From Alphaproteobacteria bacterium 46_93_T64 (GTDB taxonomy: Bacteria; Pseudomonadota; Alphaproteobacteria; Sneathiellales; Sneathiellaceae): a stretch of 64,000 nucleotides of DNA. Shown here piece by piece: positions 57,014-64,000 of this stretch; the stretch's first letter is position 1, and every line of letters starts with the position of its first letter. Under the pieces are notes generated by a model. That model was given only the letters and a program-made list of their open reading frames with translations, searched no databases and was not told the origin of the DNA. The translations under genes were made by a program, and so were the position numbers. Location of the stretch: assembly GCA_002163135.1 (NCBI GenBank), contig MAAN01000015.1:1-64000 (forward strand). The letters are read 5' to 3'.

Positions 57014-57898
57014 CTATGCGCCAAGCTTTGCCAATACGCCAGCAGCAGGCAAAATTTGATCGATCTGACCAACACCCTGTCCCGCGTACACTTTGAGGCC
57101 AGATGCTTTTTGGGGGCTGTCAATTCGTTTTGCACCACCGGAGACAAACTGATGGATACCTTTTTTCTTTGGTAGAATGACCCGGTAAGGTGTTCCGACA
57201 GGCCATCCGTAAGAATAAAAATGTCCGTGAACGGTATCGTCAGTACCAGCCTCTACCAATCGTTGTTTATAGATGTCATGGGCAAGCGATTCAGGCGTGG
57301 CAACGAAACTCGTTCCGACCCAAACACCTTGCGCACCAAGTTTCATGGCAGCTTTTACGCCCTCTGACGTCGCTATGCCGCCTGCAGCAAGTACGGGCAC
57401 CGGACCAACAGCTTTTATGATGGCAGGTAAAAGTGCCATGACACCAATGTTGCCCCTTACATGCCCTCCCGCTTCAATGCCCTGTGCGATAATGATGTCA
57501 GCGCCATCTTGCGCGGCTTTCTTTGCGTCTTTGACAGAGCCAACCTGAACCATTGTTGAAATGCCCGCTGCCTTTGCCCGCGGGATTACAGATGAGAAAT
57601 CTCCCCAAAACAGAGACAGGACTTTCGGTTTTTCTTCCAAGACAACAGAGAGTTGAGCTTCAAAACCATTGGGTCCAGGTCCCATGGGCACAAGATTAAT
57701 CCCGAACGGATTATCAGTGAGGCTGCGTGTTTCCTTGATCCAGCTACGGATGTCTTCGGCTGCCATGCGAATGCCCCCTAAGTGACCCAGGCCCCCTGCA
57801 TTGCTGACTGCCGCGGTTAGTTCCGGCCCTGCTATGCCTCCCATACCAGCTTGGAAGATCGTATTTTCAACACCGCATAAGGTCTGCAAGTTCGACAT
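57014..57898 (-). CDS. Nitronate monooxygenase family flavoprotein
   Basis: A 294-residue TIM-barrel FMN enzyme of the 2-nitropropane dioxygenase/NMO group. Marks are the N-terminal AGMGGIAGPELTAAVSNAGGLG, GIEAGGHVRG and LAAGGIATSEGVKAAMKLGAQGVWVGTSF (FMN phosphate site). It would oxidise alkyl nitronates such as propionate-3-nitronate or act as an enoyl reductase. It is divergent from a LysR-type gene, which probably regulates it. Confidence 0.88.
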   Translation of the reverse strand: MSNLQTLCGVENTIFQAGMGGIAGPELTAAVSNAGGLGHLGGIRMAAEDIRSWIKETRSLTDNPFGINLVPMGPGPNGFEAQLSVVLEEKPKVLSLFWGDFSSVIPRAKAAGISTMVQVGSVKDAKKAAQDGADIIIAQGIEAGGHVRGNIGVMALLPAIIKAVGPVPVLAAGGIATSEGVKAAMKLGAQGVWVGTSFVATPESLAHDIYKQRLVEAGTDDTVHGHFYSYGWPVGTPYRVILPKKKGIHQFVSGGAKRIDSPQKASGLKVYAGQGVGQIDQILPAAGVLAKLGA

Positions 57899-58018: not shown

Positions 58019-58894
58019 ATGACAATCATTGATTTAAACGCGCTTGAAATTTTTAGTGCAGTTGTAAGTGAAGGAAGTGTATCAAAGGCTGCTGTGAAGC
58101 TTAATCGGGTGCAAAGCAATATCAGTACTCGAATTAAGCAGTTAGAAGAGCAATTGAATAAAAAACTCTTCCATCGTCACAATCGAAAACTAACTCTGAC
58201 TGCTGATGGTGAACTCCTGCTAACCTATGCCGATAAGTTGATCACTTTAAGCCTTGAAGCCAGTGAGGCGTTAAGTGAAGACACCCCCAAAGGGGTGTTT
58301 AGAATTGGCGCGATGGAGAGTACCGCCGCCGCTAGACTTCCAGAATTGCTTCGGAAATATAACGCAGCCTATCCAAATGTTCAGATTGAACTGGTGACCG
58401 ATACAGCGGGCGGCTTGATCCAGCGTTTGAAGAAAAGTGAAATTGAAGTTGCCTTTGTTGCGGAGCCAATTTTTGGTGAAGATCTGCAGACGCAAGCTGT
58501 ATTTGAAGAAGAACTGGTTCTCATCGTTCCAAGTTCTTTTTCCAAGGTCAGTAAATTTAAAGATCTCGACGGCAAGCCACTCATTGCTTTTGAACAGGGG
58601 TGTGCTTATAGGCGGTACCTCGAAAGCTGGCTATTTGATGAGGCTGTGGTTCCGGGTAGTATTTTTTCTGTCAGTTCTTATTTAGCGATTTTTGCATGTG
58701 TCGCAGCAGGAACGGGATTTGCTGTGGCACCAAAGTCTGTGTTAGATATCGTCGATACAAGTAGTCAATTTCAACAAATTCCGATGCCAAATCAGCTGTC
58801 ACATATTAAGACAATGTTGGTGAATAGAAAGGGTTATGGGTCCAAAAAATTGGACAGCCTTAAGGAGTTTTTGCCAAATTTTACCACGACTTGA
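58019..58894 (+). CDS. LysR-type transcriptional regulator
   Basis: A 291-residue regulator. The N-terminal winged helix (LNALEIFSAVVSEGSVSKAAVKLNRVQSNISTRIKQLE, about 5-43) is followed by a periplasmic-binding-like effector domain (FRIGAMESTAAARLPELLRKY onward). It resembles the PtxR/YwbI-like regulators near nitronate monooxygenase and transporter genes. It probably controls the divergent NMO gene. The sensor pair downstream lies 99 bp beyond its end on the same strand. Confidence 0.9.
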   Translation: MTIIDLNALEIFSAVVSEGSVSKAAVKLNRVQSNISTRIKQLEEQLNKKLFHRHNRKLTLTADGELLLTYADKLITLSLEASEALSEDTPKGVFRIGAMESTAAARLPELLRKYNAAYPNVQIELVTDTAGGLIQRLKKSEIEVAFVAEPIFGEDLQTQAVFEEELVLIVPSSFSKVSKFKDLDGKPLIAFEQGCAYRRYLESWLFDEAVVPGSIFSVSSYLAIFACVAAGTGFAVAPKSVLDIVDTSSQFQQIPMPNQLSHIKTMLVNRKGYGSKKLDSLKEFLPNFTTT

Positions 58895-58992: not shown

Positions 58993-60180
58993 ATGCACAA
59001 GCTACTCTCACTGGCCTTGGTTGTGACCATTGTATCATTGCTACTATCCGCTCGGATCTCGAGTGCCACACCGATTTATATCGGCTTGGATGCTGATATG
59101 TCCTCTAGCGCCTCTCTTTCAGGGATTTCTATACAACGTGGTGCTTTGATTGCGATTGATGAAATTAACAAAAGTGGGGGTGTGTTAGGCCGCCCGCTTG
59201 AACTCTTAACAAAAGATCATCGCGGAAATCCAGCCCGAGGAAAAGACAATATTGAGGATCTCGCCGAACGTTCAGATCTTGTCGCAATTATCGGTGGTTT
59301 GCATACTCCAGTTGCTATGGCTGAGTTAGAAACTATTCATAATGAAGAAGTAATTTACCTTGGGGCGTGGGCCGCGGGCACGCCAGTTGTAAAAAATAAT
59401 TTTGATCCAAATTTCGTTTTTCGTGTATCGGTGCGCGACGAATTCGCAAGTGAATTTTTGTTAAATCAGGCGAAAATGAATGGCTATGTCTCTCCTTGTC
59501 TGCTCTTGGAAAATACGGGATGGGGAAGGTCAAACAAAAAAGGGTTTGATCAAGCTGCACAAAAGTTATCCATGAAAATTGAGGATACCCAGTGGTTTAA
59601 CTGGGGTGTGAAAGATTTATCTTCTGAACTGATCAGATTTAATAACTCGCGGTGCGATGTTGTCATGATGGTCGCAAATGCGAAGGAAGGTGGGGTCGCA
59701 GTCAATTCAATGCTTAATCTGCCAACAGACAATAGACTACCCATAATTTCTCACTGGGGTATCACTGGCGGAGATTTTCCGTCGATTGTTGGTCGAGATT
59801 TTGCTGAACTGAATTTGTCATTTTTACAAACCTATTCTTTTTTCAAGCCATCGTCTGAGAAAATGGCTATCAAATTTTTAGACGGATATTTTCAAAAATT
59901 TGCGACGTCAAAACAATTGAAGGACATTGTCGCACCTGTCGGTAGTGCACACGCATACGATCTGGTCCATTTGCTCACTCATGCCATTCGTCGGGCTGGC
60001 GTCACTGATCGCTTGGTTGTTCGTGAGGCGCTCGAGAATATGGAGCGGTATGAGGGATTGGTTCGGACATATGATCCGGCCTTCACGAAACAGCGTCATG
60101 ATGCGTTGGATATCAGTGATTTCTCTTTAGCAAGGTTCAATGCAGCGGGCGTCATTATTCCTGTGGAAGGGGCAAAGTGA
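58993..60180 (+). CDS. Periplasmic Leu/Ile/Val-type ligand-binding protein
   Basis: A 395-residue secreted protein of the type I periplasmic binding fold (Peripla_BP_6). The signal peptide ends at RISSA, with no lipobox. The fold starts at [17 protein letters not shown], then [23 protein letters not shown], and the ligand cleft region [16 protein letters not shown]. No permease or ATPase gene is near. Its stop overlaps the GTG start of a hybrid kinase by 4 bases, so it is most likely the ligand sensor for that kinase, as in LuxP-LuxQ or TorT-TorS. GGAG before ATG 58993 fixes the start. The ligand is unknown; branched-chain amino acids, amides or urea are typical for the fold. Confidence 0.85.
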
Positions 60181-63100
60181 CTAAAAGGGTTCCTCAAAGG
60201 GAGCCAGGAAGACCTTCTCGCTCTCTTTCCAGTTACTTAAATATAAGTGTAATTTTACCTGCCGCAATTGTAGTTGCTATTGCGTCAATTTCATCTGCAT
60301 TTTTTGTACGAGATAAAATGAAGGATGAGGTGACAGAGCAACTTTCTCGGCAAGTTGTCCATTCAACTGAGATTTTGACACTACGATTGAATTTGCTCGC
60401 TCAATCCGTACAGGCTGTTGCTGCTAACGATATTGTCGTCAATGGGATAATTGACGATGAAAACAGGCAAGGATATTTGCCAACATTTTTCAGGTCACTT
60501 CGCCTGTTGGATTCCCAAAGCGGAACAATTTTTCTCACGGATTACAAAGGTAGAATTGTCGTTCAAAGCAATGAGCAGACATCAGAATTTTTTTTAGATA
60601 CTGAAAAATGGTTGCCCTCCGTCATGAACGGGAAGCAAATATTCGAAATCAGTGAGCACGGATTAATGGTCGCTGTCCCCGTGATATATAACGACCTGAC
60701 TGAGGGTGCCGTGGTTGCTCAATACCGGCCAACGGGACTGAAGGATATTTTCAATTTACCTTCATTAACGGAACTAAATGCAATTGTAAGTCATCCGGGG
60801 CATCAAATACTGTTCTCCACCGTTCCTAATCTTGCTAGAAAAGCCGAAAATCATTATGCAAAACTGAAAGAGAATTGGCTTGTGGTTAGTCAGGAAATCA
60901 AAGGCTTTGAAAATCTTGAAGTAATTGTTGGTACGAGAAAAGAGGAGGCCTTTGCCCTTAGTAGGCAAACTGCGCAGATTTTCATATTATCTTCATTGCT
61001 GTCCATTTTGGTTTTATTGTTTGCGGCTAATATGATTTTGAAATTTGTCACCAATCCAATCAAGGCTTTGATCGATACAACGAACAATATTGGCAGTAGA
61101 GAATCTTCTAATGAAAGGGCGCAAATTTCCGGATCTCGGGAATTTCAAGATCTCGCGTCGACGTTTAATAAAATGGTTGATCGTATAGAAAGTACGACCT
61201 TATCATTAGAAGAAGAGGTGTCTCAATCGCGGCTACTGGGTGACAAACTAGCGATTAATCAGCGGAGCCTTGTAAGAGCGCAAAGAGTTGCCAAAATTGG
61301 GTATTGGAATTGGAATCTCCGAACCATGGAGGAAGAATGGTCTCCGCATTTGTACAAAATTTACGGCATAGATGACACCTGTAAGCCAGATTTTGAACTG
61401 TTTAAACGCTGCGTACATCCAGATGATGTCGACAGAGTAATTGCGACGCAGATTAAACATGTAGCGAATGGGGAGTCGTTCACTTCCGAATACAGGCTTG
61501 TTCATTCTAATGGAAATGTTCTGGATGTTATTTGCTTTGCTGATATGGAAAAAAATGAAGACGGCGAAGTTGAATTTGTAGCCGGCATCATTCAGGACAT
61601 TACGCAGCTTAGAAAAGCCGAGCGCAAACTAAAAAAATCACTGGATCAACTTCACGGCACGAACGAGACGCTGGAAAAACGAATACTAGATCGGACGGAG
61701 GAGTTAAGCGTTCAGAAGGAAAAGGCTGAAAATGCCAATCAGGCAAAAAGTGAATTTTTGGCGTCTATGAGCCATGAAATTCGAACGCCAATGACCGGTG
61801 TCATCGGTTTCGCAGATATGTTGCTTGAAGACAATCTGTCTGACGAAAGCCGGGATAAAGTCTTTCATATAAAGGATGCGACTAAATCTCTGCTCAGTAT
61901 CATCAACGATATTCTTGATATGTCGAAAATGGACGCTGGCAAGATGGAGCTGGAGAAACTGGATTTCCATCTACCTTCCTTAATACAACGAGTTATTCAA
62001 TTGTTTGAAGACAAGTTAAAGAGAATTGGAAACGTCCATATTGATTGGAAACTTGATGAAGATGTCCCTCATGAAATAAATGCGGACCCTACTCGTTTAA
62101 GGCAAATTATGGTAAATTTGGTGGGAAATGCAGTCAAGTTTACGCATCACGGACATATCCAAATTAAGGTCGAGATAGCTGCAAAAGATGATGGACGTGA
62201 AATGCTTCATTTTATTGTGAGTGATGACGGTATTGGAATGTCTGAAGACATTCTTGAGTCAATTTTTACCGATTTCAGTCAAGCTGATGCCTCCATAAGC
62301 CGAAAATACCAGGGCACCGGGTTGGGACTTGCCATATGCAAAAAACTTACTGAATTGAGTGGCGGTGAAATCGGGGTATCAAGTGAACCGGGTAGGGGAA
62401 GCAAATTTGCGTTCACTATTCCTTACGTAAAAGCAAAAACATCGGTCTCACCAGATAATAAGGTTATCTCTTCAGACGAATATAAAACGACTCGGTTCTT
62501 AAAAATCCTGGTGGCTGAAGACAATCAGGTGAACCAGATGATTATTGCTAATGTGATTGAGACGTATGGGCACAATCATAAAATCGCTGAGAATGGAGCC
62601 GAGGCTGTAAAAGCACTAAAGGTTGAAGATTTCGATCTGATTTTGATGGATGTCCGAATGCCTGAAATGAGCGGTCCTGATGCGACTAGAGTTATCAGGC
62701 AAATGGAATCTAAAAAATCGACTATCCCGATTATAGCGCTGACCGCAGATGCAATGGCAGGGCAACGACAAAGTTATTTCGATGCCGGAATGAATGAATG
62801 TGTGACGAAACCGTTTGAACGCGCGGATCTGTTGCTCGCGATAAATAAAGTGCTAGACGAGAAAATACATGTTCCAGTTTCCAAGGCCTTGGAGAGTGAA
62901 ATAAGTGCACTGGTTGTGCCCGATGGCTCAACACCAGAACCGATATTTAGAGAAGAAATTCCTATAGGCGATGAAAAGGAAATGCAAAACTTTGAAGCCT
63001 CGATCGGTACAGAATTGCTCGATACAATTTTGGAAACAGCATCGGAAAGTCACGCAAAACTTCTTGATGAATTGCGAGCGGGTGTTTCGCAATCTGATGT

Positions 63101-63299
63101 ATCCGTCGTCCATTCGGCGGCACACACGATAAAAGGGGCATCTGCGTCTCTATTCGGGATGCGTCTTGCTGAACTAGCCCATGAAATTCAGGAGAATGCT
63201 GAAGACATCGAACAAATTCGAGATATGCTTCCGCAGATCGAAAGAGCCACCCGCGACACTATTGCATGGTGGGATGCTAAGAGACTGCAAAAAGGCTAG
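60177..63299 (+). CDS. Hybrid sensor histidine kinase with PAS, receiver and Hpt domains
   Basis: A 1,040-residue membrane kinase. The order is membrane helix 1 (about 21-42), a 220-residue periplasmic sensor, helix 2 (about 268-290), a HAMP linker (about 291-345), a PAS domain (about 370-480), a coiled coil, the HisKA domain with the phospho-accepting His533 ([10 protein letters not shown]), the ATPase domain (Asn647/651 region, DDGIGM, GTGLGL), a receiver with Asp825 ([10 protein letters not shown]) and Lys878, and an Hpt domain with His983 ([11 protein letters not shown]). The phosphorelay His-Asp-His is therefore complete within one protein; only the final response regulator is missing from the window. 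Translationally coupled (GTGA) to the binding protein. Confidence 0.93.
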
Positions 63300-63300
63300 A

Positions 63301-64000
63301 TCAGGTCTGTGGCTGGCTGTATTTCGTTTGCTGATTGAGCCAATTTACCAAAGGGACTAATTGATCTGTATAGTTATGCCACCGCCCGATCTCTTGACTG
63401 TTCAAATGTTCTGGAACCCAATTTTCAGAAAATTCGAGATCGCAATATTTAAACAGTTTTTCGGTTGCTTTTTCAGGGTTTTGAACCAAACTTTCGTAGG
63501 TTTGAGAAAGTATTCTGTCCCCATACAGTTGGCCCCAATGGGCTAGCATTCTGTTATAATCAGCAAAAAATGCGGCTGCATCTCTCAAGTCATATGAATA
63601 GGAGTTTGCATGCTTGTAGCGCTGGAAATAGGCATATAGGCAATTGTCGAGTAGATGTCGCTGGCACGTAATGATTTTTACCTTCGGCAGTGCCTTAAAC
63701 ATAAGGCCTATATACGGAAAATTCGCCGGCATAGTATCAATGAAATAACGGGCTCCATTTGCTTCCTTCTTTATTGCGTCAATATATTTTTCCCCGATCA
63801 ATTGTATTTGACGGGCTGTTAGATGATCAATGAACGCGGGAAAAGGTTGCGTCAGGCCCAATTCGCCACGAGTTGATTTGACCGTGTCCTGCCAATCATG
63901 GCGTTCTCCTCCGGCGTATACATCAGGGTGATTTGCGAGGATGGATTCAGTCAAAGTCTTACCCGATCGCGTCATTCCGATAATGAAAATTGGTATGGGA
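63301..64000 (-). CDS. Sulfotransferase family protein (5' end outside the window)
   Basis: At least 232 residues, running off the window edge. The reading frame stays open through the last base; the 8 codons before the first Met read PIPIFIIG, so the P-loop for the PAPS phosphate is PIFIIGMTRSGKTLTESIL. The 3'-phosphate contact region is CQRHLLDNCLYAYFQRY, and a late LVQNPEKATEKLFKYCDLE is typical of TPR-linked sulfotransferases. The gene would transfer sulfate to a carbohydrate, peptide or lipid. Only one base separates its stop from the convergent kinase gene. Confidence 0.85.
   Translation of the reverse strand, partial: PIPIFIIGMTRSGKTLTESILANHPDVYAGGERHDWQDTVKSTRGELGLTQPFPAFIDHLTARQIQLIGEKYIDAIKKEANGARYFIDTMPANFPYIGLMFKALPKVKIITCQRHLLDNCLYAYFQRYKHANSYSYDLRDAAAFFADYNRMLAHWGQLYGDRILSQTYESLVQNPEKATEKLFKYCDLEFSENWVPEHLNSQEIGRWHNYTDQLVPLVNWLNQQTKYSQPQT

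Follow-up and report, generated by a model that had tools for sequence, protein, structure and literature searches.

A branched-chain-type binding protein and its adjoining hybrid kinase as part of a widely distributed receptor-coupled family

We analysed a 64,000-nucleotide stretch of DNA from Alphaproteobacteria bacterium 46_93_T64 (contig MAAN01000015.1 of assembly GCA_002163135.1, positions 1 to 64,000 of the forward strand; hereafter the window), in which a gene for a periplasmic binding protein of the Peripla_BP_6 family overlaps a gene for a hybrid histidine kinase. As judged from the genomic distribution of the two genes, the pair belongs to a widely distributed group of binding proteins coupled to receptors, and the binding protein is likely to be a dedicated co-receptor of the kinase rather than a transport protein. 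A preliminary description of the window had presented the pair as unusual; the Peripla_BP_6 partner stands, but the pair is not singular. No published description of the family was found in the literature searched, which was limited to open-access papers.

The two genes and the domains of the kinase, with the evidence for each from the list of open reading frames (ORFs), Pfam, motifs and structural models, are as follows:

58993..60180, plus strand: Peripla_BP_6 periplasmic binding protein, 395 amino acids, with an N-terminal hydrophobic, signal-like helix (ORF list, Pfam, model)
60177..63299, plus strand: hybrid histidine kinase, 1040 amino acids, GTG start (ORF list, Pfam)
60309..60962, plus strand: predicted periplasmic double-Cache sensor, kinase residues about 45-262 (model, fold matches, weak dCache_1 matches in relatives)
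61038..61190, plus strand: HAMP domain, residues 288-338 (Pfam)
61335..61592, plus strand: PAS_3 domain, residues 387-472 (Pfam)
61743..62426, plus strand: HisKA (523-588) and HATPase_c (637-750) domains, phospho-acceptor H533 (Pfam, motif)
62505..62843, plus strand: receiver domain (Response_reg), residues 777-889, phospho-acceptor D825 (Pfam, motif)
63027..63245, plus strand: Hpt domain, residues 951-1023, H983 (Pfam, motif)

We took the start of the binding protein as the ATG at 58993, the mechanically called ORF opening earlier at a TTG (58981). As the preliminary description had reported, the start of the kinase overlaps the stop of the binding protein by four nucleotides; the bases common to both, at 60177-60180, are GTGA. 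The binding protein matches Peripla_BP_6 (PF13458) with E = 5.3e-38 and 132 bits against a cut-off of 31.7, over positions 1-328 of 343, and a Pfam scan down to E 0.1 returned PF13458, PF01094 and PF13433 only. Its model (predicted local distance difference test, pLDDT, 90.4) has the predicted fold of type I binding proteins, the closest match (Z 42.1, 20% identity) being 4q6w, a Bordetella structure that contains 3-hydroxybenzoate. In the kinase, Pfam bears out the domains previously read from the sequence (HAMP, PAS, HisKA, receiver and Hpt), the sensor ahead of them spanning about 215 residues, and H533 (SHEIRTP), D825 (LILMDVRMP) and H983 (HTIKG) are all in place, as in a tripartite hybrid kinase. 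The claim of a self-contained phosphorelay holds in that all three residues are present, but the Hpt domain is not constant, as the orthologue in G007, a genome of the same genus, stops after the receiver. The binding protein had also been said to lack transporter genes nearby, and livHMGF genes of the kind that accompany LivJ-type proteins do not lie alongside: contig C17, which carries the window and is 92,975 bases long, has zero matches to BPD_transp_2, all 32 matches in the whole genome lying on other contigs. Two more Peripla_BP_6 proteins of this genome, at G000:C41:82937-83902 and G000:C1:95333-96412, have no BPD_transp_2 permease within 10 kb.

The pairing recurs well outside this genome. 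A forward scan of GTDB genomes with an alignment of the binding protein, made with no requirement for a kinase, gave 16 loci spread over several phyla (Alphaproteobacteria, Alteromonadaceae, Aromatoleum, Thiotrichaceae, Desulfobacter, SAR324 and Bdellovibrio). In 15 of them the next gene encodes a receptor whose sensor is of the same kind, the sixteenth (L091) giving only a 62-residue fragment. A profile built from the 15 sequences matched, at E<=1e-70, 12 of 385 genomes of the class and 46 of 398 genomes of the phylum, with transport proteins among the matches. We read the surroundings of 69 binding proteins, that is, these 15 together with 54 of the 59 distinct profile matches; G486, G526, G533, G558 and G728 were left out (a livH-like ORF lies at G526), and the fragment L091 and the loci L070 and L071, duplicates of L076 and L077, were dropped from the counts. 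Directly downstream lies a receptor with a homologous sensor in 52 cases, livH in 16 and a contig end in one, and in no case are both present. In a careful tree of 68 proteins (L212 left out), one branch with support of 100/97 splits the receptor-coupled proteins from the transport proteins. A quick tree rooted with eight other Peripla_BP_6 proteins from the window's genome also unites the receptor-coupled proteins in a single clade (97 in the Shimodaira-Hasegawa-like approximate likelihood ratio test, SH-aLRT), and the transport proteins fall outside it in two branches. In a further tree, with four diverged members added, this clade persists (98). Because the receptor-coupled proteins form one clade, receptor coupling appears, in this sample, to have arisen once, from transport proteins, within the sampled family. 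Finding livHMGF genes beside relatives had been named in advance as a sign against the coupling; such genes are present in 16 of the 69 cases, but only outside the receptor-coupled clade.

The reverse search gave a similar picture. A profile of the periplasmic sensor, run at E<=1e-12 against 398 genomes of one phylum, found 33 matches in 29 genomes, of which 27 are receptors already paired with a binding protein of the family and four lie beside diverged fusions of a DctP domain to the binding domain (176-210 bits); a full family-type binding protein thereby adjoins 31 of the 33. Co-occurrence was the check originally proposed, and with 52 of 69 binding proteins and 31 of 33 sensor matches paired the coupling is strongly supported by genomics; given these forward and reverse counts, the pairing is not a matter of chance. 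In a mirror-tree comparison of 42 of the 52 pairs (nine without the kinase-core motif, L084 included, and the broken L088 were left out), the binding protein correlates with the sensor at r = 0.63 and with the kinase core at 0.48, the partial correlations being 0.47 vs 0.11, and 0 of 1000 permutations reached the observed value, a pattern consistent with co-evolution. In 50 of 52 pairs the receptor has a start codon between -14 and +44 relative to the stop of the binding protein, and a -4 arrangement is possible in 23 of 52, in a survey that prefers -4 by construction. Two loci show breaks that may be either real decay or assembly errors: the kinase at L084:2380-5277 has two in-frame stops, and the binding protein at L088:149-1300 has a frame change near its end.

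Pfam assigns no family to the periplasmic sensor of the kinase, and the sensors of several relatives have weak dCache_1 matches below the cut-off. Searching solved structures with just the sensor sequence was uninformative and a profile search found mainly matches to the HAMP region; a fold search did better. The AlphaFold model of kinase residues 11-338, built with 13 sequences (pLDDT 83.7, predicted template-modelling score, pTM, 0.66), suggests a double Cache, for which the best VIA match is DctB (3by9; Z 17.1, root-mean-square deviation, rmsd, 2.8, 204 residues aligned), with further matches to PctA (5ltx, Z 15.3), 5ERE (Z 15.0) and LuxQ (2hj9_C, Z 13.8).

Several points weigh against a dedicated co-receptor, and the first three also favour an alternative in which the binding protein feeds an unlinked branched-chain-type ATP-binding cassette (ABC) transporter while the co-expressed kinase senses the same nutrient directly by its double Cache. 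The permeases behind the 32 BPD_transp_2 matches on other contigs could use this protein; double Caches that bind ligand directly (DctB, PctA) are among the best sensor fold matches, ligand-bound solved structures included; and, according to PMC11113362, three solute-binding proteins (SBPs) of P. aeruginosa that are encoded near AgtS or AruS do not bind those sensors. Genes can lie side by side without their products interacting. Receptor-coupled members were the source of both the scan patterns and the profile, and the trees are limited by the chosen score thresholds. One sensor match (G482) lies beside a DctP fusion whose binding domain is without its core, and around another (G478) the 12 kb read contain no binding protein. 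The reverse search is insensitive and, because it missed six paired receptors of the same genomes (L202, L203, L204, L206, L207 and L208), it bounds exclusivity for the closer sensors only. Common ancestry confounds the mirror-tree, in which sensor distances are near saturation. Direct sensing beside an unlinked transporter nevertheless seems quite unlikely to us, as livH lies beside 0 of the 52 receptor-coupled homologues vs 16 of 16 in the transport clade, the tree holds one switch only, and nearly all sensor matches in the 398 genomes adjoin a binding protein.

As a dedicated co-receptor, the binding protein would be secreted to the periplasm, where the cleft between its two lobes would take up a small solute. 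Once closed (or open), it may then dock on the double-Cache sensor of the kinase, and docking in whichever direction of control would shift the balance between kinase and phosphatase. The signal would pass from H533 to D825 and H983 within the kinase, and from there presumably to an unlinked response regulator.

The LuxP-LuxQ-like architecture proposed in the preliminary description is strongly supported by the sensor model. Both systems combine a periplasmic binding protein with a hybrid kinase, and the predicted sensor shares the double-Cache/PAS fold of LuxQ (2hj9_C, rmsd 3.9, 182 residues aligned). In contrast to LuxPQ, the Hpt domain stands here in the same chain and autoinducer-2 (AI-2) is an unlikely ligand; the NCBIfam model for LuxQ scores 318.8 bits against a cut-off of 1200, over residues 512-889 only, which is the kinase part. 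Nor is the binding protein of LuxP type, as the same Pfam scan to E 0.1 places it in Peripla_BP_6, and LuxP presumably belongs to another Pfam family. TorT-TorS likewise joins a binding protein to a tripartite hybrid kinase with receiver and Hpt domains, and the TorS model TIGR02956 is the best NCBIfam match of the kinase (397.7 bits, residues 482-1013), but it remains under its cut-off of 676.5 and begins after the sensor, covering the kinase part only. The sensor here is a predicted double Cache, whereas that of TorS is helical, and TorT is of another binding-protein family. On this analysis, the pair appears LuxPQ-like in its working, outside the membership of both LuxQ and TorS, and built on another binding-protein family. 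In 5ERE, which we take to be Dret_0059 of Desulfohalobium retbaense (reportedly from Wu et al. 2017, cited in PMC8694187), a solute-binding domain is likewise joined to a double-Cache domain, and our sensor matches its residues 353-593; 5ERE is a single polypeptide, whereas here there are two genes. 5ERE was absent from the 42 PDB sequences that match the binding-protein profile at E<=0.001. In Halobacterium, the orphan branched-chain-type binding protein BasB adjoins the transmembrane receptor BasT; unlike the kinase, BasT is an archaeal chemotaxis transducer. According to PMC8694187, 5ERE is a fusion between a solute-binding domain and a tandem PAS-like one. For citrate in Bordetella, PMC9602780 has the ligand-loaded BctC interacting with the sensor kinase BctE; unlike the protein of the window, BctC is of the TctC family and still serves a transporter. 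PMC9602780 also puts the kinases activated by an SBP and characterised by 2022 at only about ten. The family described here supplies natural pairs in number; they appear to share one origin, and their sister group of transport proteins still exists.

The name Leu/Ile/Val-type, given to the binding protein earlier, is right as to the Peripla_BP_6 family, but as a label it tells little of the ligand. The counterpart of W255 is the D of GGDG in 4gnr and, in 4n0q, the E of GGEG; this is the acidic residue of LivJ-type proteins, which we take to bind the amino group in amino-acid-binding proteins. Because W255 replaces this acidic position, a free (branched-chain) amino acid is the less likely ligand. 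Tryptophan occupies the position in 51 of 53 proteins of the receptor clade and in 16 of 16 transport homologues. More generally, the putative cleft residues W126, W177, H254, W255, Q279, T280 and Y322 are kept in 50-53 of the 53 receptor-clade proteins and 12-16 of the 16 transport proteins (W177, W255, Q279, T280 and Y322 in 16 of 16, W126 and H254 in 12 of 16). Such conservation makes it highly improbable that the binding protein has lost solute binding and now assists the sensor, independently of any ligand, as an accessory subunit or a chaperone, an idea for which one locus speaks: at L253:4912-6612, a DctP-Peripla_BP_6 fusion whose binding domain is without its middle part is still adjoined by a kinase of the same sensor type. 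Columns that differ between receptor-coupled and transport proteins are N86, L123, E173, W201, E232, L324, L328 and E348, and by comparing the receptor clade with its sister transporters one can seek the residues that convert a transport protein to a receptor subunit.

The sister transport loci also provide a lead to the ligand. A cytosine-deaminase-like amidohydrolase cluster occurs at six of the 16 and a gamma-glutamyltranspeptidase cluster at six of the 16 (clusters defined by BLAST), neighbours that give a weak hint of C-N bond chemistry; as a lead only, the ligand may be a planar or nitrogen-rich solute related to the cargo of the sister transporters. At L193, L169, L196, L198 and L199, varying sets of amidohydrolase, gamma-glutamyltranspeptidase, SnoaL-like and GntR genes lie around LivJ-H-M. 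A small divergent gene at the sister transport loci was considered as AtzH/HpxZ-like and dropped, as Pfam gave only SnoaL_2, weakly. In three closely related Alteromonadaceae (L080, L082 and L085) a membrane gene lies about 70-120 nucleotides downstream of the kinase; it looks to us like a queuosine-precursor transporter, a weak lead to the ligand. It is possible, though doubtful as a whole, that the family is a cross-phylum set of soluble periplasmic co-receptors, evolved once when a double-Cache sensor captured a binding protein of transport type, with varied outputs (hybrid kinase, kinase plus regulator, GGDEF, GGDEF-EAL), a two-ligand input through DctP, and a planar, nitrogen-rich ligand other than an amino acid (ureide, nucleobase or deazapurine) held by the conserved tryptophans.

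Of the 53 proteins in the receptor clade, 26 (L212 and 25 of the 52) carry a DctP domain of the tripartite ATP-independent periplasmic (TRAP) type fused ahead of the binding domain. These fusions are as follows:

L081:8990-11167, L089:8918-11104, L090:1142-3262 and 23 of L179-L215: DctP-Peripla_BP_6 fusions, adjoined by a kinase where the contig allows

DctP-fused and plain co-receptors do not split cleanly on the tree (two changes), and the fused members are natural candidates for two-input sensing. On the output side, a kinase signature is found in 50 of the 52 receptors, in 23 by Pfam and in the others by motif alone. The non-kinase outputs are those of L208, which ends in GGDEF, and L207, which ends in GGDEF-EAL. 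A receiver-bearing ORF is next after the receptor in 22 of the 52 loci, or 21 without L084, where it is the second part of the broken kinase itself. Ten such ORFs were scanned, with kinase domains in eight, SpoIIE in one and HD in one, and the receiver ORF of L081 ends in GGDEF.

The genome is that of a Sneathiella-type alphaproteobacterium. Within the genus, the pair is present in four of 24 genomes (G000, G005, G007 and G009), absence being unsure in the seven of the 24 that are less than 90% complete. The genes adjoin with a four-nucleotide overlap in all four genomes that hold both, and identities to the pair of the window are 57-69% for the binding proteins and 46-62% for the kinases. Two genes upstream belong to the same setting:

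57014..57898, minus strand: gene of the nitronate-monooxygenase (NMO) family, divergent from the LysR gene
58019..58894, plus strand: LysR-type regulator, best NCBIfam match PtrR at 292.7 bits, under the cut-off of 400

The LysR gene lies 98 nucleotides upstream of the binding-protein gene, a position kept in the four pair-bearing genomes, and the order of the block is the same in all four: NMO (reverse), LysR, binding protein, kinase (in G007 the contig ends within the NMO gene). Only the four pair-bearing genomes have relatives of the NMO at 59-81% identity, the next in the 24 having 46% and 43%. A downstream SBP gene (SBP_bac_6/8 by Pfam), which we take to be of the iron type, is found in 22 of the 24 genomes and was for this reason rejected as a part of the system. 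We read seven of the 18 SBP loci without the pair: ald directly precedes the SBP gene in five (G004, G011, G012, G015 and G023), and an aminotransferase gene, not ald, adjoins it in the other two (G001 and G003). From these comparisons, the four genes probably came or went together, as one block.

This setting invites the alternative that the unit in the genus is the four-gene block, with the LysR regulator and the NMO as target and effector, and a nitro compound or an NMO product as ligand. The closely related binding protein, kinase and NMO occur in the same four of 24 genomes with the LysR gene between them, and the genes that flank the block, ald and the SBP gene, are adjacent in five of the seven pair-less loci, both of which would fit. 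We consider this alternative unlikely, however, since no NMO cluster recurs at receptor loci outside the genus, LysR relatives of 55-58% identity occur without the pair in G004 and G012, the SBP gene has an aminotransferase gene rather than ald beside it in G001 and G003, and we know of no direct route from a kinase to a LysR regulator. The LysR gene that precedes the SAR324 pair bears only a remote resemblance (30% over 72 amino acids), and LysR as a general third component was rejected outside the genus.

The final response regulator had been placed outside the window, and a locally built profile indeed found no other ORF with a receiver domain in the 64 kb at E<=1e-8. We examined a NarL-type gene farther along the contig (C17 about 73258-73881, minus strand; L069:13256-13882) as a partner. 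The gene is retained at about the same position in several members of the genus. Its phospho-acceptor Asp is replaced (TGSN), with similar losses at the receiver site in the copies of G007 and G009; genomes without the pair (G011, G012, G015 and G023) likewise have a copy no more than 5 kb from the SBP gene, and G005 has the pair without a NarL-type gene beside it. Because of the degenerate receiver, the pair-less copies and the absence in G005, we excluded this gene. The gene at C17:77231-77599 encodes a receiver on its own, with the Asp residues intact, and is found near the pair also in G005, G007 and G009, which makes it a candidate partner, as a lead. From gene content, the target regulator in the genus would be either unlinked or among genes not recognised as such.

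In the window's genome, several genes separate the kinase from the SBP gene. Among them, from window positions 63301-63999 on the minus strand and continuing in L069:3302-8014, are a tetratricopeptide-repeat (TPR) sulfotransferase of 650 amino acids and, next to it, a repeats-in-toxin (RTX)-type protein of 916 amino acids; of the four genomes, this one alone has these two genes in that interval.

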